Shown here piece after piece: positions 339-34,529 of a stretch of 45,419 nucleotides of DNA (its first letter is position 1; every line of letters begins with the position of its first letter). A program made the position numbers and the translations under genes. The notes below the pieces were generated by a model. It made no database searches and was not told the DNA's origin. It was given only the letters and a program-made list of their open reading frames with translations. Source of the stretch: a virus; the IMG/VR virus record IMGVR_UViG_3300018083_000051, positions 1-45,419 of that record, one strand, 5' to 3'.

Positions 339-2978
339 TCACACGACAGTCTTGAGTGTAGAGAGTGACACACCCAGTTGATCCGCAATCTCTGCCTGAG
401 TGTAGCCAAGAGCAACCATAGCCTTGGCACGGCTAGTCTTAGCATCAGTCATTACGATCTTGTTACGAGGTGTAGCCAGTTCCTTAACTCTATCTAGATC
501 TGCATGAGTAAGGATCTGTGACAATGTGTTGTTGCTCACAGCACCAGCCTGGATGGCTGCCCATTCCTGGTCAGTGATGTCGATACGCTGCTTGCCTGCG
601 CCTGTACGAATTCGAGCTTTAGTAAGCTCTAGTCCTTTAAGCTTCTTCTGTTCCGATTTGTCCATGTCTGGATTCGCGTCCAGCTTGGCGCGGAAGGCGG
701 CGTTTGCTAGGAGCTGGGCGTTTCTTTCAAGAGGCGCGTTTCGTTGGGCTATTTTTAGTTTGGCACGGAGGGTATTAACCTGATCTTGGTAGGCGACCTT
801 AGCTTGCGGGCTGTATGGAGAAGGCTTGATGTTGAGCGACACCAAGCGTGCCTTGTTAGCCAGATCCTTCAGTCTATTGGAGTGGTCGGCATACACCTTC
901 TCGATGGGTGTACCAGAAGATAGGGCGTGCGCATTGGTTGCTTCAGCCAGCTTACGTACCTGCGTGGTACGAGTTACTGTCTGTCCTTTATCGTTTACAT
1001 AGGTAGCACCAGTGGGCTGATACCTATTCTGACCAGTGATCCTATCGACAGCACCGCCTGCATCAGCGAGACGGGGCTTTCGTTCGGGTACGTACAGCGT
1101 GGACTTGGCACGGGAGATCAGAGTCGAAGCGCCGGCTCTGCTGCCACCTTGGTACTTAGTCTTGAGTTGAGCAATACCATTGTCGATTGCAGACTGACGG
1201 TAGTCGAGATTGTGTTTCTCAGCATCGATGACAACCATGGAGTGACGTACTGCACGAGCAAGCTCCTGAGTATTCGCACCACGAATGGTCATGTCAGTGA
1301 TAAGGTTCGAGACCTCGCCCATTTGAATTGCTTTGGTGCGAGGAGTCATGCGCTTCATACCCTCATATGATGGATACGAACGCTGAGGGTCAAACCCCTT
1401 CAGACCATCAAGAGCAGGCGCCGTTTTGATTTGCCTCTTGTTATTGGGTATAACAAGAACCGTATCGCCATCGAAGTCTGCACCAGACAGTCGTTCAGCT
1501 ACCTTCGAGTTGATACCAACCGCATCTCGAGCCTGACCAAGAGCACGCTTGGCTTCGGGATGACGATTGTTTACTGTGAGTTCTGGGATCTCAAAGACGC
1601 CACCATGAGGATAGCGAACAAGCGCAACACGTTCTCCATCCCTGAAGTTAGGCGCATAGATCTCAGTTTCTTTCAGTGAGTTGATCGGAAGGATGACGTT
1701 CGATCTCTGTCGAGGCAGAGCGGCCGCCTTCAGATGTACTGCTGCGGAATCCACGTCACCAGCAAACGACTCCAGCAACTTCCTCTTGACAGTTGGATTC
1801 GTCAGGCTCATGATGTCGTCGAACTCACGCTGCTTACGCTCGTTCATCATGTCCAGCTGCTGCTTAGCCAGAGTAGGGCTCTGCTTAGACAACAACTGCG
1901 AAGACAGATTCTTGGACCACTTATCCCAAGCACCTTCCTCGTTTACGATGTTCATCGCCGAGATGACTTTACCAGTCTTCGGGTGAATCTTCTGGCGAAC
2001 GATAGACCCAAAAGGATTCTCAGGGTCATCCTTCATCGCTTTCATCGCGTCGAGCTTGTTACCCGTACTCCGCTTGTTGGTATTGAAGACGAGATCCACG
2101 CCGTCAGGCAGGTCGTCTTTGTACATGGCCATACCCTTGAGGTAATGCGTGCCGTCAACAGCAATTCGGACTTGGGCATAGCGGGCGCCACCGAGACTAA
2201 CGTCTTCGACGCCAGGACGAACATGGATAACGCCGTCAGAGTCCGCGCCACCGTCTTCTGCATAACGAACACCAACCCGCTTACTACTCACGGACAGGGG
2301 CTTCTGGATGGCGATGTAAGAACGACCACCATCTTCCGAGAACGCTTGGATCTGTTTGATGTCGGCACGGTTTTTGGAAACCTCAGAGTACGACACACCA
2401 GGTGCAGAGAGAATCTTAAGTGTCGTCTCTTTTCCAGTACCCAACTGACGCACCTTCAAGTAGTGAATCTTGTAGCCTTCTTCTTGAAGCACAGCCACAG
2501 CTGTCGCCAGCTTGGTGTCACTGATATCGAGATGCTGTCCAACGCCAACACCAATATCGATGTACTTCTTTTCGGCAACCTGGTCTTTCAACATTGTCGC
2601 CGTGCTAAGAAGGATATCAGCTTTGTCTTTCACACCAGGAGCGAGCAAAGCTCGAACCGACGATTCCGGAATGCCCATACGTTCGCCAATGGCGACGTTA
2701 GACATTCCCTTGTCTTTCAACCTGGTAACCATGTTGATGTTGGACTGACGCTCTTCGTTCTTTGCAATTGATCTGGCCGCACGGAGCTGGGTTGTGGTGA
2801 TACCCATTCCTTCCGCAACCTGTGCTTCGCTGAGACCTTGCTTCTTCAACTTCTCCGAATAGGCAAGGAAGCCGCTACTACTGGCGAATTCAGGTCCGCC
2901 AGATCCCCAAGGATAACGGCCCGACTTACGGAGGATGCCGTAGTGAGCCAAGTAGTCGTCCTCAGAAACGATTGTCAT
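339..2978 (-). CDS. RNA polymerase-like protein (DFDGD double-psi barrel) with three HTH segments
   Basis: An 879-residue protein. Residues 501-505 read DFDGD inside GADFDGDTVLVIP, the Mg-binding loop of beta-prime-type, YonO-type and RdRP-type polymerases. A basic segment just before it (446-498) and the following SNLITDMTIRG (557-567) fit the same fold. Residues 235-300, with YLKGMAMYKDD, could be the partner barrel supplying the catalytic lysine, but that is inference. Helix-turn-helix segments lie at about 40-70, 85-112 and 848-878. The N-terminus carries HYGILRKSGRYPWGSGG, a motif recurrent on phage virion-associated proteins. The start (GGAGG upstream) overlaps the exonuclease stop as ATGA. 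It is probably a single-chain phage transcriptase. Alternatives are a polymerase-fold protein with another enzymatic role, or a structural protein. The DFDGD loop is seen directly; the function is inferred. Confidence 0.7.
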   Translation of the reverse strand: MTIVSEDDYLAHYGILRKSGRYPWGSGGPEFASSSGFLAYSEKLKKQGLSEAQVAEGMGITTTQLRAARSIAKNEERQSNINMVTRLKDKGMSNVAIGERMGIPESSVRALLAPGVKDKADILLSTATMLKDQVAEKKYIDIGVGVGQHLDISDTKLATAVAVLQEEGYKIHYLKVRQLGTGKETTLKILSAPGVSYSEVSKNRADIKQIQAFSEDGGRSYIAIQKPLSVSSKRVGVRYAEDGGADSDGVIHVRPGVEDVSLGGARYAQVRIAVDGTHYLKGMAMYKDDLPDGVDLVFNTNKRSTGNKLDAMKAMKDDPENPFGSIVRQKIHPKTGKVISAMNIVNEEGAWDKWSKNLSSQLLSKQSPTLAKQQLDMMNERKQREFDDIMSLTNPTVKRKLLESFAGDVDSAAVHLKAAALPRQRSNVILPINSLKETEIYAPNFRDGERVALVRYPHGGVFEIPELTVNNRHPEAKRALGQARDAVGINSKVAERLSGADFDGDTVLVIPNNKRQIKTAPALDGLKGFDPQRSYPSYEGMKRMTPRTKAIQMGEVSNLITDMTIRGANTQELARAVRHSMVVIDAEKHNLDYRQSAIDNGIAQLKTKYQGGSRAGASTLISRAKSTLYVPERKPRLADAGGAVDRITGQNRYQPTGATYVNDKGQTVTRTTQVRKLAEATNAHALSSGTPIEKVYADHSNRLKDLANKARLVSLNIKPSPYSPQAKVAYQDQVNTLRAKLKIAQRNAPLERNAQLLANAAFRAKLDANPDMDKSEQKKLKGLELTKARIRTGAGKQRIDITDQEWAAIQAGAVSNNTLSQILTHADLDRVKELATPRNKIVMTDAKTSRAKAMVALGYTQAEIADQLGVSLSTLKTVV

Positions 2979-6879: not shown

Positions 6880-7377
6880 TCAGAGGCCCTGGAATGGTTC
6901 CTTCAGAAGACTACCCTGTAAAGGTCCCTGGAAGGGCTCGTCGAGAGGCAGATCGCCCTCGACGAGCTTCACGCCTTCGGCCGAATGCCTGTAGTCCGGT
7001 GCGTATCCGTCATCCGAAGTAGCCTTCTCCCACGCCTCGCGCCCAGGCGTGAAGTCCACCTCGAAGGTGAGGTGGAACTCGCGATCTCGGTAGACGTACA
7101 GCTGACCACGAAGCGGGACGATCCAGTCGGACACTCGGGCGTACTGGAGTCGCTTGGTCTTCTTTCCTTCTTCGGCAAGGCTGTCACGCTCCGCCGAGAA
7201 CGTGAAGAATGGCCGACCGTTCGGGTCGTACATCAGCTCCTCGTCGAACTCGAGGGCCAGTTGTCCGACGTTGTCCGGTGTGACGCAGATGGCTTCGGTC
7301 TTGATGACCTTCGGGGCGTAGCTGGCGGTCACCGGATTGAAGTGGTGCAGGTCGAGTGTTTCGGCGTTGAAGATCAT
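6880..7377 (-). CDS. Hypothetical early protein
   Basis: A 165-residue soluble, mostly beta-rich protein of acidic character. The C-terminus contains a short internal repetition of phenylalanine-glutamine motifs (EPFQGPLQGSLLKEPFQGL). No catalytic motif is visible. It is preceded by AGCAGGAAC at the ATG and lies 12 bases after the stop of the next upstream gene, in the run of small genes between the ssDNA-binding candidate and the helicase. Such genes are usually early and variable. Function unknown. Confidence 0.75.
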   Translation of the reverse strand: MIFNAETLDLHHFNPVTASYAPKVIKTEAICVTPDNVGQLALEFDEELMYDPNGRPFFTFSAERDSLAEEGKKTKRLQYARVSDWIVPLRGQLYVYRDREFHLTFEVDFTPGREAWEKATSDDGYAPDYRHSAEGVKLVEGDLPLDEPFQGPLQGSLLKEPFQGL

Positions 7378-7389
7378 GTTCCTGCTTTC

Positions 7390-7896
7390 TTAGTTCTTCT
7401 TGTTGTCGGAGTCGAAGCTCGCGAAAGCTTCGTCCACGGTGAGTGCGTTGGTGTGGTTCACCGTGTTCTCGACCGGATCCTGGAGCTGGCCGGGCGACAG
7501 GGGGATGAACTTCTCCGGGTCCCAGGGCTCTTCGTCGGTCATCTTGGAGTTGTTCGAAATTCCCTGCAAGTTTTCATCCAGCGTTTCGAAAACCTGCGAC
7601 GACTTGGCCTCCTCGAAAGCCGCCCAGAACTGCGGGGCCTTGTAGACCCGGAAGCGTCCCTTGGACTCGACGATGAAGTTCCCGAGACGAGCGACGAGTT
7701 CCTTGCCGCGGTCCTCGCCCTGCCCCTGCAGCTTCAGGACCGGCAGGTCGACGTCGGCACCACCCAGCACACGAGTCGACTCGCTGCCCACCTTGCCCTT
7801 GCACCACTTGGCGAGTTCGTCGACGTTCTGGAAGTTCACCTCAACCGCTCGGACAGTGAAAGTCTTGCGGTTGTAATCGTGCAGCTCGAATTCCAT
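7390..7896 (-). CDS. Small phage protein of a repeated early family
   Basis: 168 residues. The first ~85 residues match a pattern common in small actinophage proteins: a start strand (FTVRAVEVN), a short helix with ELAKWCKG, then a strand-rich stretch with GNFIVESKGRFRVYK. The same layout (ELADWCGG...GDTIIRKADGSFQIFKG) forms the whole of the 70-residue protein at 8730-8942, so the two are paralogues. The C-terminal half is acidic and probably disordered. The start has GAGG upstream. Family function is unknown to me. Confidence 0.75.
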   Translation of the reverse strand: MEFELHDYNRKTFTVRAVEVNFQNVDELAKWCKGKVGSESTRVLGGADVDLPVLKLQGQGEDRGKELVARLGNFIVESKGRFRVYKAPQFWAAFEEAKSSQVFETLDENLQGISNNSKMTDEEPWDPEKFIPLSPGQLQDPVENTVNHTNALTVDEAFASFDSDNKKN

Positions 7897-8942: not shown

Positions 8943-9226
8943 CAGACCGTCGGGGCGTACAGCAGCTCGAAGACTTCCTTGGATGCGGCACGAAGCTCCG
9001 AGCCGTCCCACACGATGTAGTGATAGGTGCCGGTCTGCAGGTAGAAATCGTCCAACCGCACGACGATCGAGTAGCGGTTCATCGGCGTGGGAACCTGAAC
9101 GGTGAAACCGGGCGCCAGTGTGCGCACCCATGCCCGAGCGTTCTCCACGTCCTCTTCGGAGTTTCCTACGAGCCACGCCTCCACCGTGTTGGGTTCCCTG
9201 GTCGTGAACGAAACGGGCTGGGTCAT
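8942..9226 (-). CDS. Hypothetical early protein
   Basis: 94 residues with alternating strands and helices (EAWLVGNSEEDVENARAWV helix, then beta-rich stretches), a ferredoxin-like layout. No catalytic motif. Coupled at both ends: its ATG overlaps the stop of the ssDNA-binding candidate at 9223, and its own stop overlaps the next start. Function unknown. Confidence 0.7.
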   Translation of the reverse strand: MTQPVSFTTREPNTVEAWLVGNSEEDVENARAWVRTLAPGFTVQVPTPMNRYSIVVRLDDFYLQTGTYHYIVWDGSELRAASKEVFELLYAPTV

Positions 9227-9768
9227 CGTGCTCCTTCGATCTGTCGTTGTTCACCTTCGAAGAACTCCGCGTCGATGTATTCCGGAGTGCCGGCGATCTG
9301 CTTCCGGCTTTCCTCGACGATCGCAGTCCACTTCAGTTCGAGGTAGTCCTCGAGGATCTTGACGAACATGGTCGCCAGGTAGGCCTTCACGCCGGTCTTA
9401 CCGTTGACGGCCCACTCGTACGGATTGAGTGTGACATCACAGCGATCGATGTCGACCCAATCCAGAAGCGCGACCATGTCTTCGGTGTAGTAGTTCAGAC
9501 CCTTCGAGGTGACCACACCGATCTTCGGGGGCTTGGCCTTGTACGAGACGGCCACCTGGATGTACGGCTGACCTTCGTCATCATCGTCATCCCGCGGCTT
9601 CAGACGCTTGACGTTCCATCCGTCCCGCAGCATCTGCTGGGCCCGCTTCTCGTCGAGCAGGATCGCGAAGTTCCTGTCGCCGGCGCGGTTGTACGTGTCT
9701 TCCTTACCCTCGAAGTTTCTGAACGCAATCGTCACGTTCTCGAGAATCAGGTTCCTGTCATTCGGCAC
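9223..9768 (-). CDS. Putative phage ssDNA-binding protein
   Basis: 181 residues. The N-terminal stretch (a strand ENVTIAFRNFEG, then GDRNFAILLDE and the DGWNVKRLKP segment) resembles the OB-fold ssDNA-binding proteins common in actinophages; a central acidic DDDDDE loop and a strand with YIQVAVSY follow. The C-terminus is acidic in part, as expected for a tail that recruits replication partners, but not strongly so. The GTG start has GGGAGGTGAG upstream and overlaps the preceding stop (TAGTG). Near the polymerase fusion, it is a plausible replication partner. Family assignment rests on pattern memory. Confidence 0.55.
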   Translation of the reverse strand: MPNDRNLILENVTIAFRNFEGKEDTYNRAGDRNFAILLDEKRAQQMLRDGWNVKRLKPRDDDDDEGQPYIQVAVSYKAKPPKIGVVTSKGLNYYTEDMVALLDWVDIDRCDVTLNPYEWAVNGKTGVKAYLATMFVKILEDYLELKWTAIVEESRKQIAGTPEYIDAEFFEGEQRQIEGAR

Positions 9769-11084: not shown

Positions 11085-11264
11085 TCACGAACTCGTCTCT
11101 TTGTCGTTCCTTGCGAACTGTTCTTTCGACAGGATCTGCACGTCGTTGTGGTAGAGGATCCGAACGTGTGTGTACCACCGAGTTTCCTTCAGAATCACAC
11201 CGACTCGTCCGTACATCTCATGATGAGGATCTGTCACAGTCACTGTTTTTTGAGGGATGCTCAC
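11085..11264 (-). CDS. Small protein coupled to the replication fusion gene
   Basis: 59 residues starting from GTG at 11262-11264, which overlaps the stop of the replication fusion gene as GTGA. The protein (SIPQKTVTVTDPHHEMYGR...) is a compact beta-rich domain; the segment MYGRVGVILKETRWYTHVR resembles an SH3/KOW-type fold. Translation is expected only in step with the upstream gene. Function unknown, but coupling suggests a partner of replication. Confidence 0.65.
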   Translation of the reverse strand: MSIPQKTVTVTDPHHEMYGRVGVILKETRWYTHVRILYHNDVQILSKEQFARNDKETSS

Positions 11265-14200
11265 GACACAAACTCCTCAAATGATCCGAATTTTTCGATC
11301 GTTGCTTTTGCTTCCTCGACCAGACCCTCGAAGTAATTGAGATCGACCTCGGGCTCGATACCAGCAGCCCTCACGGCGTCCGACTCGAGCCAGCGGAATC
11401 CCTTCGTTCCGGTGACCGCGTACTGCTTGTCTTTTTCCTTGTCGTGACGGAAAAGCTCTCCGCCTCCACTGACCACCGGGATGAATCGTCCGGTCTTACC
11501 CACGAAGTGCGGACCGCTGTCGAAGTGCAGGTACATATAGCCCTTCGCGACCTGCTTGGTTTCAGCGAGATCCTGCGGGAGGATAGGTTCACCGTTGAAC
11601 AGAGTCTTGAAGACGTACGGCACCTTGAACTGTGCACCAGTGGCCGACCAGTGCGAATCCTTGCCACCGGTCTTGGCGACGTAAACTGCATCGTTCACGA
11701 GACAGAACTTCTCGTAGATGTCTTTTTCGGGGTCGTACGTGAAGTCGTACCCGTATTTCTTGCCGAACTCAACAACGAGATTGATGATCTCGTCATCGAA
11801 ATTGGCAATTTTGATCGAGTCGGTCTTGATGTGCACGACCTTGTAGCCGAGTTCCTGAACGTACCGCTTCAGCTCGATCATGAACAGAGCACCGCGTTTC
11901 GCTGCGATGTTATCCTTGTTACGCTTGTCTCGGAACGGGCTGTCGAACGTGGCCGAGGTCAGACCGTACACAATGTTGATGACGATCTTCAGAGCCCAAG
12001 CCAGATCTTTAGCCTGTCCTTCGTCCGTAAGGTAGCGCGCGAGCTTTCCGGACAGCATCTCACGAGCCGATTGATAGTCTCCCGACTTGATTGCCAGGCG
12101 CGCATCCACCAAACCCTTGAAATTTCGGGTGTACTCACCGAACATGTCGAGTTCGATAATAGATGTTGGATGCATCGAGGCGACGTCGAGCAATGCCACG
12201 TTCTTGTAGATTCCGGGTTCGGCGTAGACATACCCACCCTCTCCGACCTGCTCCCCCATGTACGTCGACTTACCTGCGTCAAACGTATACCCATCGAACT
12301 CCTCGGCCAGTTTCGTGTAGACGAATTTGCTCTGCGGGTTGCGATCTCCTTCAAAGATGATCTGCGCGGTGTGCTTCGCGGTGGGATCGTTGACTGTCAG
12401 ACCACTGAGCTCCGCGAGAATCTGCCTCGCAACGAAATCCTGTTGACGAGCGATCCACGTTGCTTTGGTTGCTCGAACATCGTTCGCACAGTAGTCAGCG
12501 ACGTCCATCCACTTTTCCTCGGGAACGTCTTCGTCCCAAGGGTGCTCGAATTCCTGGTGAGGAATCCCGAGTTCGATCTCCCACTTCTTGAGCGACTTCT
12601 TCTCGCTCGCAAAGTCCCAGATGTCCGCGTAGGACAGGGAGTACGCCGCAGCGAATGCGACGTTGGGGGCGTTGCCGATGAGCTTTTGGCTCAATGCGAA
12701 CAACTGGGCGTTGTTGTAACCCATGTATCGTCCGTAGATGATGTGGTTGTCGTACCTACGGTTGTAGAACCCGACCAACTTCATCTTGAACAACTGCTCC
12801 ATGTCCTGAGCAGTCGGGTTGATCATCTTGACAACAGTGTCCGAGTTCTCGTACATCCAGCAAACGACGAAGAGATTCGGGAAGACCTCTACGTCATAGA
12901 AAGTGACGGGAATGTCGGGGTTGAAACTGTCGACTGTAACGGCGTCAGGGAGCGGATCATGTGCTGGCTCGGACGAGAACCGCATTCGCTGAACGATCTT
13001 GAGGCATGCCATGGATTGGTTCGAACTGTTGTTGGCGAATGCCACCAGCTTGGGACGAAGGTCGCTGACGTCGTAAGTAAGGCCTTGGGCGTAGGCGTCG
13101 TCGAGAATCTTCGCGATGAAGTCAATCGATGGCTTAGTTCCCGGATGGATCTCCTTACGGAAATTGCGCGCGATGAGATCACGAAGACCACGCTCGGATT
13201 TGATTCGTTCGTCGGTGAGCACCTTGCTGGTCTCCTTGAGGGGAAGGCCACTCGAGATCGTGGCGATCGGAACAGTATTACACCGGGTGAGCTTTCGACG
13301 GAGCGAGGCTTTGCCAGTGAATACCTTGACCTCGATCCCCTCCGAATAGATCCGGGAGAGCTGAGCAACATCCCCATCGTAAAGATAATGAAGATGCACA
13401 CCCTCGCCACTCTTTGACAGTTCCCCATACGTTGGGGGCCAGGCGGAAGCGGCTTCGAGATTGCGAGCGAGTGCTTTCCCACCATCTTCTCCCTTCAAAT
13501 CGAAGTCGATCACAATGTGTTGTTCGGGGACCATGACGAAGTGTTCCTTCGCCGTGTCCAAATCTTTCAGAATCGTCGTGACCTTGGACCACGATAGAAC
13601 AGGTGTACCTTTGTCACTAGAGTACTGTGCTCTTCCCTCAGCCAGTTCAGTATCCAGTAGCGAGATCTTGTCCTCGAGAACAAGCGAGAACACGACAGTG
13701 TCTTCGTCGGTGGACTGCTTGAACTTGGTGGCAGTGAAGCCCGAATAGACGCTCCGTAGAATCTGACCATCCCGTTCGACCTTGTCCTTGAATTCGTCGA
13801 AGTAGTTCCGAATCTCTTCACGAAGCTTGTACTGCGGGAGCGGCTTCTCGATACCTGTGCTCTTGCAGTAGTCTTCGTACATTGAGTAGACGCGCTTCAG
13901 TGTGACAAAATCCGCCATCTTGAACTCGTCGTAGTAGTACTCGACGAAGTTGAAAATGATGTCGGTCTGAAGCTGCATCTCAGTCGGTCGGTAACTGTTG
14001 TAGTAGTTCTTACCCAAAGAACGATAGACGTCCAGACAATGGGCTGCAATAGCACCGAGCTCGAAATCGATCCTCGACGTTAAGGTGTTGTACTGGTTCG
14101 GGGGAATGAGAGCACCGGTCGGGAGAATATCGATCAAGCGTCGCAAGATCCCAGATTTCCCATCGGAGATCTTCACAGGCTTGTTCGTACCCATGAACAA

Positions 14201-15004
14201 GAGAGCATTCACCCGACCGTTGTAGCTGGGCTTGTACTTCTCGTTCATCCTGATTTCCTCGTGCGCTACGATAGAGTTCAGGAGTGTGTTGTCGTCGATG
14301 CGAGACAAATCGCCATCGTGCTGAATGGCAACCAGTGGGTTGGACTTGAAAGCCTCGGTGGCGAAGGAGTTGTTCGCCGAGCCTAATGCCTTCGCTTCGA
14401 ATTTCGTCGCGTAGCCTTCGAAGAGCTTCTCCACTATAGACATGATCGTCGACTTCCCAGTACCCGGAAGGCCATAGAATACTAGGAACTTCTGTATCTT
14501 CATGGAGTCCCCAGCGACGATCGAACCAATCGCCCATTCGATCTTCCTCCTTTCTTCAACCGAGTACAGCGTTCCGACAATTTCATCCCACGAAGAACAG
14601 TCGCCATGCTCCAAAGAATACGGAAGACGACGGCTAATGTAGTCTTTCTTCTTGACTTCTTGGTTCGCGAATGTCAGATGCTCATCCAGCTGATGGAAGC
14701 TGTCGCTGACGTTTCGCAAGAACATCCGGTAGTTGATCCAGGACTTGCTGTTGTAATTCCGCATCGACCGGATGGTGACGCCGCTACCGGGGTATTCTTT
14801 CTCGGCGTACTTACGCATCTCATCGTCGAGCAGCCGACCGACGTCGTACTCGTCCGTAGACCACACGCCGGCTTCTTCGTCCCAGATGGCATAGAACGAA
14901 CCACCCCGGACCATCAAGTCTTTAGATCTACCTACTACGAAATTGGGGGTTAGGACAACGCCTCCGTCTTTCTTCTCGTCAACCTGAATGGTGTAGAAGT
15001 CCAT
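11261..15004 (-). CDS. SF3 helicase - AEP primase - family B DNA polymerase fusion
   Basis: A 1247-residue replication protein with three enzyme modules. Residues ~150-330 form an SF3/D5-type helicase: Walker A GLPGTGKS (178-185), a Walker B-like segment near 225-232 and motif C ALLFMGTN (267-274). Residues ~435-600 look like an archaeo-eukaryotic primase: IDFDLKG (Asp500, Asp502), SGEGVHLHY (His537) and GIEVKVF. Residues ~695-1230 are a family B polymerase: exonuclease sites FYDVE (Asp704, Glu706), FYNRRYD (Asp752) and YCANDV (Asp842); motif A LLDVASMHP (Asp940), motif B KIVINIVYG and motif C HIKTDSI (Asp1062). Proofreading residues are intact. In motif C the first of the usual D-T-D aspartates is Lys1060. 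ATG has AGGGGG upstream. One chain could unwind, prime and copy the genome. Confidence 0.88.
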   Translation of the reverse strand: MDFYTIQVDEKKDGGVVLTPNFVVGRSKDLMVRGGSFYAIWDEEAGVWSTDEYDVGRLLDDEMRKYAEKEYPGSGVTIRSMRNYNSKSWINYRMFLRNVSDSFHQLDEHLTFANQEVKKKDYISRRLPYSLEHGDCSSWDEIVGTLYSVEERRKIEWAIGSIVAGDSMKIQKFLVFYGLPGTGKSTIMSIVEKLFEGYATKFEAKALGSANNSFATEAFKSNPLVAIQHDGDLSRIDDNTLLNSIVAHEEIRMNEKYKPSYNGRVNALLFMGTNKPVKISDGKSGILRRLIDILPTGALIPPNQYNTLTSRIDFELGAIAAHCLDVYRSLGKNYYNSYRPTEMQLQTDIIFNFVEYYYDEFKMADFVTLKRVYSMYEDYCKSTGIEKPLPQYKLREEIRNYFDEFKDKVERDGQILRSVYSGFTATKFKQSTDEDTVVFSLVLEDKISLLDTELAEGRAQYSSDKGTPVLSWSKVTTILKDLDTAKEHFVMVPEQHIVIDFDLKGEDGGKALARNLEAASAWPPTYGELSKSGEGVHLHYLYDGDVAQLSRIYSEGIEVKVFTGKASLRRKLTRCNTVPIATISSGLPLKETSKVLTDERIKSERGLRDLIARNFRKEIHPGTKPSIDFIAKILDDAYAQGLTYDVSDLRPKLVAFANNSSNQSMACLKIVQRMRFSSEPAHDPLPDAVTVDSFNPDIPVTFYDVEVFPNLFVVCWMYENSDTVVKMINPTAQDMEQLFKMKLVGFYNRRYDNHIIYGRYMGYNNAQLFALSQKLIGNAPNVAFAAAYSLSYADIWDFASEKKSLKKWEIELGIPHQEFEHPWDEDVPEEKWMDVADYCANDVRATKATWIARQQDFVARQILAELSGLTVNDPTAKHTAQIIFEGDRNPQSKFVYTKLAEEFDGYTFDAGKSTYMGEQVGEGGYVYAEPGIYKNVALLDVASMHPTSIIELDMFGEYTRNFKGLVDARLAIKSGDYQSAREMLSGKLARYLTDEGQAKDLAWALKIVINIVYGLTSATFDSPFRDKRNKDNIAAKRGALFMIELKRYVQELGYKVVHIKTDSIKIANFDDEIINLVVEFGKKYGYDFTYDPEKDIYEKFCLVNDAVYVAKTGGKDSHWSATGAQFKVPYVFKTLFNGEPILPQDLAETKQVAKGYMYLHFDSGPHFVGKTGRFIPVVSGGGELFRHDKEKDKQYAVTGTKGFRWLESDAVRAAGIEPEVDLNYFEGLVEEAKATIEKFGSFEEFVS

Positions 15005-15013
15005 GCAACCCCC

Positions 15014-15541
15014 TTAGAACTCTTGAAGTAGGTATTCACTGAGCTGATACCAGATTTCTACTTGACGTTGATCGTTATCGGTGCGGTTGAGAGGGAACAG
15101 TCCTCCAAACCCATTCTTGTCATATGTCCTGAATATGACCATGTGCGTTGAATCTTCGACTTGATCAGGATCAAAATCACTTCGGTCGTGGCAACCCAGA
15201 AGCTCCAAGTTGACGATCAAATGCCAAAACCAAGACGGCCCGTCGCTACCACCTTCGAACGCGAGCCGTCTTGACAGGCCGATCAACAACTCAAGAAACG
15301 AACATCCTGTTTCCAACCAAGCAGGATCCACGTCCTTACCGGTGATGGTCATCCATTCGCGCCGAAGCTCTCTACCGTCAGCCGCGCGGTTATCGTCGTT
15401 GGGAACGAACCACACGAACTCGGTAGCAAGCAACTGTCTGAACAAATTCCAGTATGTCGTGGAGCTTCTCCGGGTCCTGACGACCTTTACCTGACTGTAG
15501 AGCCACGTCAGATATAGATCGTCAGGAGGCCCGGGAGTCAC
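15014..15541 (-). CDS. Conserved actinophage protein of unknown function
   Basis: 175 residues, GTG start overlapping the upstream stop as GTGA. The protein has a recognisable conserved core seen in many phages: LLATEFVWFVPNDDNRAADG, then WLETGCSFLELLIGLSRR and WFWHLIVNLELLG. Its acidic and Trp-rich motifs suggest a defined fold, but no catalytic site is known to me. It sits nine bases before the replication fusion gene. Confidence 0.7.
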   Translation of the reverse strand: MTPGPPDDLYLTWLYSQVKVVRTRRSSTTYWNLFRQLLATEFVWFVPNDDNRAADGRELRREWMTITGKDVDPAWLETGCSFLELLIGLSRRLAFEGGSDGPSWFWHLIVNLELLGCHDRSDFDPDQVEDSTHMVIFRTYDKNGFGGLFPLNRTDNDQRQVEIWYQLSEYLLQEF

Positions 15542-16200
15542 CTACCCTCGAGCCGAACGCGCTTGTGCGGCGGGACGGAGTCGTCCGTCATCCCGAGAAC
15601 TTCTGCCTCGTACGAACCGAAGGAACGCACGACTTCGAAGTCCATGTGGAGTCCGGAGTTTCGGATGTGGACGACGTTCTCGTCGCTCGAGCCATCACCG
15701 AAATGGGTCTTGAACGCCGTGCCCACGACGATCTCTGAGTTGTCGATCGGCTCGTCTCGCTCACCGCAGACTTGATCACTCTTCTCGTAGTACGTCAGAG
15801 TCGCCTGCTGGTGGTCCAGCTCGTTGGTCATGAACTCATCCTGATCAATGATGACCGGACCCATGTCGGACACGTTCTGGACAATCACGCCCGGTTCTCC
15901 AGCGACGACTACCGTCTCAGGCGAGACGTACTTTTCCTCCGAGACCAGTTTGTTGTACTGGGTCCTCTGCTTTTTGACCCGGGGGTCTTCCAGATCGGGA
16001 ATGAGCTCCTTGACCGCTGCTTCCGGAGTGGCATACGGCTTCTTCACGTTCGTGTAGAACTCCCGCATGTCCTTGGTTTCTTCGGTCAGACGCTCCTCGA
16101 ACCGAGCCGCCAGCTTCTTCTCGGCGATCTTGTATCCGATGGCGAAACCGATACCGGCGCCCAGGATCCCGACGCCGGCCGTCTTCAGCGAGTTGTCCAT
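15538..16200 (-). CDS. Membrane-anchored protein, unknown function
   Basis: 220 residues. A glycine-rich hydrophobic segment at 7-25 (AGVGILGAGIGFAIGYKIA) anchors the N-terminus in the membrane; a charged, coiled region follows (26-90), then a mostly beta domain. The start overlaps the upstream stop as TGATG. It is coupled to a DUF6353-like membrane protein, and this arrangement recurs in actinophages. Role unknown; a membrane-associated early function is inferred from position. Confidence 0.7.
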   Translation of the reverse strand: MDNSLKTAGVGILGAGIGFAIGYKIAEKKLAARFEERLTEETKDMREFYTNVKKPYATPEAAVKELIPDLEDPRVKKQRTQYNKLVSEEKYVSPETVVVAGEPGVIVQNVSDMGPVIIDQDEFMTNELDHQQATLTYYEKSDQVCGERDEPIDNSEIVVGTAFKTHFGDGSSDENVVHIRNSGLHMDFEVVRSFGSYEAEVLGMTDDSVPPHKRVRLEGR

Positions 16201-17120
16201 CAGAGTCCACGACCGATCAGGTGGTTGACGGCACCGTCAACGTTGAAGTCGAGCAGGATGGCACCTTCACGACCGTTGACGAAGTCGCGAGCCTTCTCGT
16301 TGTTGCCATCGTAGATCCCGAAGTCGACATAGCTGTCGCCGTTCCCGTGGACCCAACCGACGACCGAGCCCGCGTAGCTGCGTTCGATACCGAGAGCGTC
16401 GTAGACGTCGTTCAGCAGAAGGTGCCCGCGGGCCAGAAGCATGTCGTTCGCGTACTGCTGCTGAGCCCGGAGGAACGCCAGGTTGTACTCGGGCTCACGC
16501 TGCCAGTTCTTCTGGGTCTCGTCGAAGAACCGCGCGTACTGGGACGGGGCACCGTCGCCGACCAACTTCTTCTTGAGTGTCTTCGTCTTGCCGTCGTCGG
16601 TGACAACCTTCTCTTCGACGATCCGCGTACCGTAGCGCATCTCGTCGTCGACGTCCTTACCGAGTTGGTCGCGGACGCGCTCCCGGTACTGGTTGAACGC
16701 CTGGTCTGTGGCAGCGTAGGCCGCGGCGAGACCGGTGTTCCGCTTGTTCAGCGTGACGTGCGAACCGGTCAGCAGACTCACCGAGATCAGCAGAAGCCCA
16801 GCGGCCGGGGCGTACAGCTTGGTGACGGCGAGAATCGTCTTGACCTTGATGACGGTCAGGTCCTTGGCGTAGGCTTTCTCGTCGTAGTGCTCACCTTCGG
16901 GGAGAAGCTCGGGGTTCCCATGGAGAACTTCGGCCTTGAGCTTCAACTCCTCGAATTCCTCGAGAACTCCGCTGAGCTTGAGCGTGGAGCGGCAGGCCAG
17001 AACGACGCCAGCAGCGCCGGCGACGATACCACCGCCGAACATGATCTGAGGCGAAGCCTTCTGCAGGTGGAGCAGTGGACGGGCGACCTTGTTGGCCACC
17101 GCGGCGGGCAGGATTTTCAT
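16200..17120 (-). CDS. DUF6353-like phage membrane protein, copy 1
   Basis: 306 residues. Two hydrophobic stretches (about 27-45, MFGGGIVAGAAGVVLA, and 98-120, YAPAAGLLLISVSLLTG) form a membrane hairpin; a charged segment between them is probably on one face. The long C-terminal part is soluble and contains WVHGNGDSYVDFGIYD near the end. The same plan and several motifs recur in the protein at 18846-19592, so the two are paralogues. I recognise the type as DUF6353, function unknown. The start has AAAGGAA upstream. Confidence 0.65.
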   Translation of the reverse strand: MKILPAAVANKVARPLLHLQKASPQIMFGGGIVAGAAGVVLACRSTLKLSGVLEEFEELKLKAEVLHGNPELLPEGEHYDEKAYAKDLTVIKVKTILAVTKLYAPAAGLLLISVSLLTGSHVTLNKRNTGLAAAYAATDQAFNQYRERVRDQLGKDVDDEMRYGTRIVEEKVVTDDGKTKTLKKKLVGDGAPSQYARFFDETQKNWQREPEYNLAFLRAQQQYANDMLLARGHLLLNDVYDALGIERSYAGSVVGWVHGNGDSYVDFGIYDGNNEKARDFVNGREGAILLDFNVDGAVNHLIGRGL

Positions 17121-18845: not shown

Positions 18846-19592
18846 TTACTGACAGCGGTCGAAGCCCTTGATGGGGTCGTTGTTGTAGCCGATCATGATG
18901 GCCGGCTGGTCCTTGTAGATGGTCGTCGAGTAGTGAACGTCGAGAAGTTCATCGCTGTTCCAGCCGATGGCGTCCGAAATGCTCGTGGCGGTCAGTCCGA
19001 TCAACTCGTAGAAGTCAGACAACGATGCACAGAAGTAGTTGTTGACCTTGTGATTGATCTCGTTGACGGCCTTCATGACGGCTTCCATCGTGTTGTGGAA
19101 GTAGCGTCCCGACAGTTCGTCGTAGAACAGAACGTTCGAACCTGCGATGATCAACATGTTTCCTGTCGGCGGGTTCTTCTCCATGCGATCGGTCGCCAGT
19201 TCCGCCCGCATCTTCTCTTCCTTCTGGAGTCCGAGCGTCTCCAGAACCTTCTTCTTGTAGTCCTCGCCGAGCTGCTCGGACAGTTTGAAAGCCGCTGCGA
19301 AAGCCGCTGCCCGACGTGCTCCGATCTGGTTGGCTCCTATGATTGCGGCGACGGTCACAATTCCGACAGATCCCGCCGGAATGTAAAACTTCCAAGTCTG
19401 CTTGACGTTCTCTTTCAGATCATTCATCTGATTTGGATCCGTCTCCACCAACCACGCGGATGCTTTGAAGCCACCCTTGGCGGCCAAGATGGCTGTCGTC
19501 ACCGTGCCGGCAACCCCGAGGCCCGTCAGAATCCCAGGGGAATTGTCGATGACGAATTTCTCAGCTACTTTCAGAATCGTCTTTACGGTCAT
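18846..19592 (-). CDS. DUF6353-like phage membrane protein, copy 2
   Basis: 248 residues. Hydrophobic segments at about 17-35 (SPGILTGLGVAGTVTTAILAA) and 70-88 (YIPAGSVGIVTVAAIIGAN) form a membrane hairpin; a helical linker (95-130) and a soluble C-terminal domain follow. The layout and the tail motif (AIMIGYNNDPIKGFD) parallel the 16200-17120 protein, so these are diverged duplicates. It starts with AGAAGGAACG upstream and overlaps the 3' end of the 57-residue gene by 32 bases. Confidence 0.65.
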   Translation of the reverse strand: MTVKTILKVAEKFVIDNSPGILTGLGVAGTVTTAILAAKGGFKASAWLVETDPNQMNDLKENVKQTWKFYIPAGSVGIVTVAAIIGANQIGARRAAAFAAAFKLSEQLGEDYKKKVLETLGLQKEEKMRAELATDRMEKNPPTGNMLIIAGSNVLFYDELSGRYFHNTMEAVMKAVNEINHKVNNYFCASLSDFYELIGLTATSISDAIGWNSDELLDVHYSTTIYKDQPAIMIGYNNDPIKGFDRCQ

Positions 19593-31188: not shown

Positions 31189-32334
31189 TCACAGAGGGCG
31201 GACCCAAACCCATTCGACAGACGAATTTGCATAGGCCAAGTGCTGAATTGTTTGCGACGCTCCACTGTCCTGATATCCGACAGCTTCCATGTAATCACCG
31301 ACGTTCAAAGGAACTAAAGCTGTGAACTTAGCCGTCACATCGCCATGCGATGCCCCACGAGTAGAGCCAGCGCCTAGGTAATCGCCGCCACCGCCATTGA
31401 ACGTGGGTTCAATGAATATCCTCGAAAAGGTCGTACCTGTGACACAGATCTGAATCCGAACGTCGTACCAACCGGCTCGCCGACAATAACACTTCGAATT
31501 CGCCGCAGAACTCCATTGCTCGTTGGCACCGAGAGTGTCCACATTGTTCGAATATGCATGAGTCGGTGCGTCTGCCGCATCTAGACGAAGCGTAATGAAG
31601 CCGGTGTCGGTTAAAGTGTTACTAGCGCCCGTCAGAATGAGCCTCTTCAGCAACGGAGGAGGACTGAGAGTCACATGCGAAACTCGCCACGTATCAGTAG
31701 CAGTCTTGATCAGACGAACTGAACTACCACCGCCATAAACAGGAACGCTACCGTTGATAGTAACACCCCCGCCGGGGGTCAGAATAACCGGACCTTTGTC
31801 GCCAGACAAGATATCCACGAACGAACCAACCGGAATGGCCACGGAAGAGTTCGGAGGAATCGTACCGGCGATATTTGTCGCATAAGATGAGCTGTTGGCA
31901 ACGATCAGCTTACCGACGTCGGTCAAGGCAAGCGTGAACGCCGCCGTCACCGTCCTGCTGATGACCGAACTGGTCAACTGAGAAAGGTTCACGGCGTCAT
32001 CGACAGCAGTACCCGCTACGACCTTAGCTCGCCCATCAGACAGACGCTTTACTACCTTGTCGGCGGTAGCCGCAGTGGTAGCGTCTCCAACCTGAAGGAA
32101 TCCCGCGGAACTGATTCCGTCCAAAAGCTCGGAGTCTGCGGCTTTACCTAGAATGGGCAGGTAATGCGAGTCGAACGCGGGATCCAGTGCGTTCCAGCCG
32201 TTGGACCCGTCGCCGACCTTGATAATACCTGTGTCGGTGGTTACGCCGAGCTCGCCGGCATCCAAGACATAGTTCGACGTGGCCCAAGTAGCCGCGGTGG
32301 CACGCCGCTGCTGCATTCGTGTGCCTACTGCCAT
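31189..32334 (-). CDS. Tail fibre / receptor-binding protein
   Basis: 381 residues. The N-terminus (GELGVTTDTGIIKVGDGSNGW) is a virion-attachment segment shared by phage fibres and also seen in the collagen-like protein at 42503. A central beta-rich stalk (100-225) leads to a C-terminal jelly-roll-like domain (VRIQICVTGTTFSRIFIEP... to YANSSVEWVWVRPL). This resembles C1q-like heads that bind a ligand. It lies between the two tail-tube proteins and the tape measure, so it may be a side fibre. Start overlaps the previous stop (TAATG). Confidence 0.7.
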   Translation of the reverse strand: MAVGTRMQQRRATAATWATSNYVLDAGELGVTTDTGIIKVGDGSNGWNALDPAFDSHYLPILGKAADSELLDGISSAGFLQVGDATTAATADKVVKRLSDGRAKVVAGTAVDDAVNLSQLTSSVISRTVTAAFTLALTDVGKLIVANSSSYATNIAGTIPPNSSVAIPVGSFVDILSGDKGPVILTPGGGVTINGSVPVYGGGSSVRLIKTATDTWRVSHVTLSPPPLLKRLILTGASNTLTDTGFITLRLDAADAPTHAYSNNVDTLGANEQWSSAANSKCYCRRAGWYDVRIQICVTGTTFSRIFIEPTFNGGGGDYLGAGSTRGASHGDVTAKFTALVPLNVGDYMEAVGYQDSGASQTIQHLAYANSSVEWVWVRPL

Positions 32335-33083
32335 TACAGCGCACCTCCATCGATAGTATCTATGACTGATGTGGCGGGTGTTCCCGCATCGTAGGTGACG
32401 AAGACCGGAGTGTATGGGGATCCTGCGTCGTAGATGGAATCTTCGAAAGAGTCGAACAGGAACATCAACTCTCCCGGCGTGGGAAGAGCGGGGTCCGTCG
32501 TGTCGGTTCCGTAAAGAAGGTCTTCGACATCCCGTAGAAGTTCCAGAGGAACATCGCGAGAATCGATGATGAAATGCGTCGTCGGCTTGTATCCGATGGT
32601 CTCTGCAGGACGAGATGTAACTTTCCAGTTGAACGTTGACGGCTCACTTTGATCGGTCAAAGTCTTGTAGCCGTGATCCGAAGGTTCTGCTTTCAGATTG
32701 TACAAGACGTGAATTTTGTAGCCGAGAGAAAGACCGGCGACATCATTACCGACGAGAGAACGGTACACCAGTCCGAAAGTCTTGCGCCTCTGCTGAGTGA
32801 TCCGAAGACCGTTGTCCGTTCGGTATGTACCGTCGCATCGTTCAAACTCAAGGGGATACGTGTAGGCTTCAATCGACGCTTCGAAGTCTTCAGGGGCGGA
32901 ACGATTGCTGATCTTGATTCCGTCTCGGTACTTAGGTTTTGCTTCCCCACCAGACTGACCTTGATTGACACTTACGAGACCAGACCAAGGAACACCAGGA
33001 CTTCCGCCGACATACAGAACACCCCGATCGATCCCGGCCTCGAAGATACGATCTCCAACAGTAGACCAACTGATTCTCGTCAT
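32334..33083 (-). CDS. Second tail-tube protein paralogue
   Basis: 249 residues clearly related to the major tail protein at 33645-34529: matching blocks GVLY, PWSGLVSV versus AWNGLTTV, EAYTYPLEFE versus EAFTYPVEFE, and LGYKIHVLYNLKAEPSD versus YGYKLHLVYGCLAAPSE. It lacks the C-terminal Ig-like domain. It may be a minor tube protein, a tail terminator or a tube variant near the tip; which is not visible from sequence. Confidence 0.75.
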   Translation of the reverse strand: MTRISWSTVGDRIFEAGIDRGVLYVGGSPGVPWSGLVSVNQGQSGGEAKPKYRDGIKISNRSAPEDFEASIEAYTYPLEFERCDGTYRTDNGLRITQQRRKTFGLVYRSLVGNDVAGLSLGYKIHVLYNLKAEPSDHGYKTLTDQSEPSTFNWKVTSRPAETIGYKPTTHFIIDSRDVPLELLRDVEDLLYGTDTTDPALPTPGELMFLFDSFEDSIYDAGSPYTPVFVTYDAGTPATSVIDTIDGGAL

Positions 33084-33644: not shown

Positions 33645-34529
33645 TTAGACGTAGTCGTAGAACCAGTCGGTGTCGATGACATCCGGGAAGTGGTAACCGG
33701 GTTCCGGGTACGCCACGACGATCGTGTCAACGGTGATGACCAGAGCGCCAGCCGCGACAGTGTCACCGTTGACGGTGTAGCGAACGCCGGTGATCGCCGG
33801 GATGGTGATCGTGTGGGTTCCGGAGTTGTAGGCGGGCGCCGTCGGCGTCGCCAGAGTGGTGGTAGCAGTCAGCATCGCGATGACGTCGGCCGGCAGCGGC
33901 ATGGAAGGATCGTTCGACGGATCCCCGTACAGCTGCGTCTCCAGCGTGGCCAGCCTCGTCGGATCGACCTTCGTGCTGTTGATCGTGATGCTGGCCGTGG
34001 GCTTGTACTCGACACTGCCCACCGTACCGACCTGGACCGGGTTGGTGGTCAGCTCCCACGAGAACGTGATGGCCTCAGGGGAGTCGTTGATGGTCGCGTA
34101 CGCCTTCTCCGACGGTGCGGCCAGGCAGCCGTAGACCAGGTGCAGCTTGTAGCCGTAGTCCGCGGCCTGAACGTCGTTGCCCAGACGAGTGCGGTAGCAG
34201 ATACCGAACGGCAGACGATTCTGCTGACCGACGCTGACGCCAGGAGTCGGCGTTGCGTTGCCATCGTACTTCTCGAACTCCACCGGATAGGTGAAGGCTT
34301 CGACCGTGGCGCCGAACTGCTCGATGGAGACGAGGTTCAGGTACTTGATGTTGTCGGCGTACTGGGGGCTCGCTTCGGCACCCGACGGCGACTCGGTGAC
34401 GGTAGTCAGACCGTTCCAGGCCACGCCGGTCGAGTACTCGCCGGCTTCGTCGATCTCGTACAGGACGCCGTGGTCGACGCCAGTTTCGTACGTTCGCTCG
34501 CCCGTCTGGTCCCACGTGAGCTTCGTCAT
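33645..34529 (-). CDS. Major tail (tube) protein with a C-terminal Ig-like domain
   Basis: 294 residues. The tube fold is inferred from the core (about 10-215) and the gene order. Residues ~225-294 form an Ig-like domain (PAYNSGTHTITIPAITGVRY ... YHFPDVIDTDWF) that strongly resembles the end of the major capsid protein. Such domains decorate the tube or capsid surface and may bind host polysaccharide weakly. Its paralogue at 32334-33083 lacks it. Expression is expected to be high. Confidence 0.85.
   Translation of the reverse strand: MTKLTWDQTGERTYETGVDHGVLYEIDEAGEYSTGVAWNGLTTVTESPSGAEASPQYADNIKYLNLVSIEQFGATVEAFTYPVEFEKYDGNATPTPGVSVGQQNRLPFGICYRTRLGNDVQAADYGYKLHLVYGCLAAPSEKAYATINDSPEAITFSWELTTNPVQVGTVGSVEYKPTASITINSTKVDPTRLATLETQLYGDPSNDPSMPLPADVIAMLTATTTLATPTAPAYNSGTHTITIPAITGVRYTVNGDTVAAGALVITVDTIVVAYPEPGYHFPDVIDTDWFYDYV

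Follow-up and report, generated by a model that had tools for sequence, protein, structure and literature searches.

A HelPrimPolB-type replicase with helicase, primase and family B polymerase modules in one chain, encoded by an uncultivated virus

The window (the whole stretch of viral DNA analysed, 45,419 nucleotides) carries a long gene which raises the question of whether a phage may entrust the unwinding, priming and copying of its genome to a single polypeptide. The initial annotation had described a protein with helicase, primase and polymerase modules and proposed that it could be a self-contained replisome of one chain. The gene is very probably a tailed-phage replicase belonging to the HelPrimPolB family, of which GP55 of Lactococcus phage 1706 is the type member, working through the four steps set out below. 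The coordinates of its modules and motifs, and of two companion genes, are shown in Table 1.

The open reading frame (ORF) begins with ATG and was located on the minus strand, which the initial annotation had left out. The AAGGGGG ahead of the ATG is a strong, Shine-Dalgarno-like match to a ribosome site. The predicted protein matched the PHROGs family phrog_4210 over its full length (1883 bits), as well as 280 GenBank phage records, 252 of which covered at least 80% of it in one place; the ORF is therefore not a product of chance. These phages were chiefly those of Arthrobacter, Gordonia and Streptomyces, and the protein was annotated in them as 'DNA primase/polymerase'. The partial matches that were looked at corresponded to one domain only, as in the separate family B polymerase (PolB) of Listeria phage P35.

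Table 1. Location of the replicase gene, its modules and motifs, and related features in the window.
Feature	Position	Strand	Basis
HelPrimPolB-type replicase, 1247 aa	11261..15004	-	ORF; full-length phrog_4210 match; alignment with GP55
Shine-Dalgarno-like AAGGGGG, 5' of replicase ATG	15009..15015	-	Read directly in sequence
Long ORF opposite replicase gene	11444-13417	+	ORF only, apparently not a gene
N-terminal region, residues 1-125, no known domain	14630..15004	-	Conserved in family; GP55 aligned from residue 1
SF3 (AAA+) helicase core, residues 126-335	14000..14629	-	Pfam DUF5906; P4-type primase helicases in PHROGs
Walker A GLPGTGKS, residues 178-185	14450..14473	-	K184 corresponds to GP55 K189
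SF3 motif C / sensor 1, residues 267-274 (N274)	14183..14206	-	N274 invariant in 212/212
Pox_D5-like domain after helicase, residues 347-413	13766..13966	-	Pfam Pox_D5, 2e-5, above cut-off
Archaeo-eukaryotic primase (PriS-like), residues 451-600	13205..13654	-	AlphaFold2 model; PDB matches; Prim-Pol matches
AEP motif I DFD, D500 and D502	13499..13507	-	Both invariant in 212/212; D502 corresponds to GP55 D509
AEP motif II SGEGVHLH, residues 532-539, H537	13388..13411	-	H537 invariant in 212/212
aHD alpha-helical module, residues 601-676	12977..13204	-	Helices only in model
3'-5' exonuclease domain, residues 698-880	12365..12913	-	Invariant catalytic residues; GP55 D712/E714 aligned
Family B polymerase domain, residues 881-1247	11264..12364	-	Model and PDB fold matches
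Phage ssDNA-binding protein, likely partner	9223..9768	-	Pfam PF24083, 1.4e-58
RNA-polymerase-like protein, 879 aa, phrog_4291	339-2978	-	phrog_4291 label 'RNA-dependent RNA polymerase'

The chain is composed of a superfamily 3 (SF3) helicase module (residues 1-425), an archaeo-eukaryotic primase (AEP) domain (451-600), a helical module (601-676) and a PolB with exonuclease (698-1247). The placing of the helicase before the primase, the reverse of common fusions, had been pointed out in the initial annotation, and was borne out by motifs, domain matches and models alike. In the helicase module, no family-library match confined to residues 1-125 was obtained. Pfam DUF5906 matched residues 176-288 above its curated cut-off (2.7e-11), the C-terminal helicase parts of P4-type PHROG primases matched residues 110-434 down to 1e-24, and TIGR01613 matched at 2e-15, below its cut-off. 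The Walker A motif begins at residue 178 and motif C reads ALLFMGTN, both at the residues previously annotated. Residues K184, N274, R288 and R289 were invariant in 212 of 212 family sequences and D230 was kept in 208 of them. With Walker A, Walker B, the motif C asparagine and the arginine finger all recognizable in the sequence, the module is predicted to be an SF3 helicase.

The primase region was modelled with AlphaFold2 with the help of 60 relatives, and the model had a mean pLDDT of 91.6. All ten Foldseek matches in the PDB with E < 0.001 were the AEP primase-polymerases of pRN1 (ORF904) and phage NrS-1, and the first match after them had an E of 0.1. A PDB sequence search with the profile of the domain gave chance matches only, so that a structure model was needed. 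The TM-scores against known AEPs were low (0.26-0.42), indicating a divergent AEP domain; at sequence level, weak matches to Pfam Prim-Pol were obtained for 39 and to AEP-TOTE for 13 of the 61 family members. The IDFDLKG motif of the initial annotation was found at residue 499, and its His537 within SGEGVHLHY. Residues E558, R569 and R570 are likewise invariant in the family, and E558 would be the acidic third motif. The modelled fold, DxD, xxH and the putative third motif place the domain in the AEP superfamily; an AEP fold was thus obtained for the very region on which the initial annotation had staked its reading.

Those low TM-scores, the Prim-Pol match of E = 0.1 for the window protein itself and the RNA-polymerase-like gene that is always present would also suit a degenerate AEP domain incapable of priming, in a fused helicase-polymerase that takes its primers from transcripts or from a phage-encoded RNA polymerase. 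We consider this very unlikely, as D500, D502, H537, E558, R569 and R570 are invariant, the aHD residues needed for priming in GP55 are conserved (Y644 and F656, aligned with Y655 and F667), and GP55, which is 38% identical, does prime (PMC12205980). The aHD is itself required for priming in that protein (PMC12205980).

The complete proofreading family B polymerase claimed for the C-terminus was recovered in full: Exo I-III and Pol motifs A-C were found, a PolB fold was modelled, and residues 881-1247 were assigned to PolB by fold search. The exonuclease residues D704/E706, D752 and Y838/D842 were invariant in 212 of 212 sequences. Motif A contains D940 (GP55 D949), motif B comprises K1006, Y1013 and G1014, and motif C begins at residue 1060 and is KTDS in all 212 sequences instead of the usual DTDS, with the second, metal-binding aspartate retained. 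Standard Pfam PolB models gave no match on the single replicase sequence, and the assignment was settled by fold search and PHROGs: the C-terminal model (pLDDT 94.4) had only PolBs or variants of them among its best 50 PDB matches (E from 9e-15 to 2.5e-12), and E. coli Pol II was the best sequence match of solved structure (2.9e-7). Fold and motifs together point to a family B polymerase with a predicted 3'-5' exonuclease activity.

Relatives were drawn from viral contigs and bacterial genomes, the latter mostly of gut Bacillota. They gave 248 loci, which are not a census, as complete copies are favoured by the search and some contigs came up in more than one scan; 238 have one uninterrupted ORF with the same domain order, eight run off the contig end and two are interrupted. 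A misassembly of an ordinary primase-helicase was ruled out, since the single ORF recurs in these 238 loci on independent contigs. Every module keeps its catalytic residues unchanged, or almost unchanged, throughout the 212 distinct sequences, and conservation is lowest at residues 76-100, 426-450 and 676-700, coinciding with domain borders. The window protein is 50-77% identical to most relatives and groups in the tree with contigs 70-77% identical to it. The nearest cultured relatives infect Actinobacteria, such as Rhodococcus phage ReqiPepy6 (60%).

In one of the interrupted genes, on a Clostridia contig (L244:7998-12735), the gene is split between the exonuclease and polymerase domains by a predicted Bro-N ORF and an HNH-type ORF, and the polymerase half starts with an ATG of its own; neither an intron nor any other RNA family was found in this insertion with Rfam. 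In the other (L242:7971-12033), the frame is broken near residue 955, just past motif A, and the frames overlap; sequencing error, a pseudogene or frameshifting would each account for it. A single chain is therefore not strictly required. The split gene, a linker (676-700) that is the least conserved stretch, and the cooperation in trans of the GP55 primase and polymerase (PMC12205980) are consistent with processing or partial translation of the chain into helicase-primase and polymerase polypeptides acting in trans. This arrangement is judged highly improbable for the window protein, given the one ORF in 238 of 248 loci, with all exceptions but two being contig-end cuts, and the activity of the full-length GP55 chain.

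Two further loci contain, about 2 kb upstream of the replicase, short ORFs whose similarity to it is confined to the SF3 helicase part (L061:3185-3682, with Walker A retained, and L078:3180-3761). They could be decoys or regulators, and were dismissed as part of the replication system because they are too rare.

To the replicase as a single working chain a likely partner can be added. All 37 HelPrimPolB phage records, the window included, contained the PF24083 ssDNA-binding family. Profiles of DnaB_C, DnaG_N, PolA and the bacterial beta-clamp each found none in the 37 related records (window included, some of them maybe fragments), with positive controls. On these counts, replication probably rests on the replicase chain and the ssDNA-binding protein. 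Other genes of the window code for a helicase of SF2 type, a small endonuclease and an exonuclease whose PD-(D/E)XK match is weak, and the phage may use a host polymerase, ligase, RNase H or clamp, or other host factors. The self-contained replisome of one chain is only partly supported: several activities do reside in the GP55 chain, but GP55 is mainly a dimer and every genome checked encodes its own ssDNA-binding protein.

The RNA-polymerase-like protein contains SGADFDGD around residue 501, in which ADFDGD is presumably the motif typical of multi-subunit-type RNA polymerases, and has helix-turn-helix matches at both ends; its relatives are usually annotated only as HTH protein. The phrog_4291 gene likewise accompanies the replicase in each of the 37 records, and 249 GenBank phages match the protein with at least 80% of its length covered. 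Judged by genus counts, which are the same for both proteins (95 Arthrobacter, 55 Gordonia, 54 Streptomyces, 13 Lactococcus, among others), it occurs in practically the same GenBank phages as the replicase. On the same evidence it hardly ever occurs where the replicase is lacking. It is conceivable, though rather doubtful, that the replicase and the ADFDGD protein of about 880 residues form a fixed core for replication and transcription, together with the dedicated ssDNA-binding protein, and that the two polymerases cooperate. Transcription would then start replication, for example, or late genes would be read from replicating DNA. This companion is possibly more interesting than the replicase itself. 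YonO of phage SPbeta is a known single-chain RNA polymerase, perhaps of a distantly similar type (PMC5467207).

Several paralogous pairs were observed elsewhere in the window, all on the minus strand. Two DUF6353 / phrog_2152 paralogues (16200-17120 and 18846-19592) stand upstream of the replicase within a series of genes that also includes phrog_4678, 4695, 4079 and 4282; elsewhere in the phage group, genes of similar size occupy this position, and one of them is annotated as a membrane protein. Two nearby genes (32334-33083 and 33645-34529) match the major tail protein family phrog_2645. Tandem phrog_14977 paralogues are located at 6880-7377 and 7390-7896, the latter also weakly matching a nucleotide pyrophosphohydrolase family.

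From the module folds and families observed, their order and the conservation of the residues essential in GP55, the following mode of action is proposed for the HelPrimPolB-type replicase. The N-terminal SF3 helicase would open the duplex, probably as an oligomer, at least a dimer like GP55. The AEP domain and the alpha-helical module would lay a short primer (RNA in GP55). The C-terminal PolB would take the primer over and extend it while the helicase powers strand displacement and the exonuclease domain proofreads. The phage-encoded ssDNA-binding protein would cover the displaced strand. By homology with GP55, similar activities, RNA primers, nucleotide preference and dimeric state may be expected of the window protein. 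One-chain replicases test the minimum of protein needed for copying a genome, and might lend themselves to isothermal DNA amplification in which no primers are supplied.

The architecture is real but already known, and no new class is opened by it. Kazlauskas and colleagues (2020) named the HelPrimPolB group, which has an SF3 helicase and PrimPol N-terminal to PolB and a divergent motif C, and cited a survey of 2016 as their source (PMC7544198). The window protein is an ordinary member of this group and of PHROG 4210, with the same fusion and divergent motif C. GP55 of the dairy phage 1706 (Lactococcus) has been purified, and helicase, primase, polymerase and exonuclease activities were demonstrated in one chain in 2025: the helicase depends on UTP/dTTP, the primase makes RNA primers, M13 ssDNA is copied de novo and the protein is mainly dimeric by SEC-MALS (PMC12205980). 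A literature search for further work on GP55 returned the original article only. The initial observation was confirmed, and its reading was right in mechanism but not in its implied novelty, and so is partly supported.

Both proteins align end to end with 38% identity, and share domain order, the KTDS motif C and the ssDNA-binding protein family. All seven mutationally tested GP55 residues named in PMC12205980 are identical in the window protein (K189, D509, Y655, F667, D712, E714 and D949, corresponding to K184, D502, Y644, F656, D704, E706 and D940). Module order, essential residues and motif C are those of a GP55-type HelPrimPolB protein. The window protein is 70 residues shorter, mainly without an insertion near the C-terminus, and comes from an uncultivated virus, its likely activities following from homology. 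It confirms the wide spread of the design, in soil and actinobacterial phages, beyond the human-associated phages stressed in PMC12205980.

The primase-helicases of NrS-1, pRN1 (ORF904), P4 (alpha) and D5 have AEP and SF3 modules in common with the window protein, whose AEP fold matches NrS-1 and ORF904 and whose helicase matches P4-type primases. In that type the primase is N-terminal to the helicase, an order not found in the window protein, in which the helicase is N-terminal and a proofreading PolB is added. Listeria phage P35 has a related PolB, gp33 (25%, E = 2e-17), and beside it the primase gp34, with a related SF3 helicase (20%, E = 2e-4) in its C-terminal half; two genes in P35 thus hold what is joined in one chain in the window.
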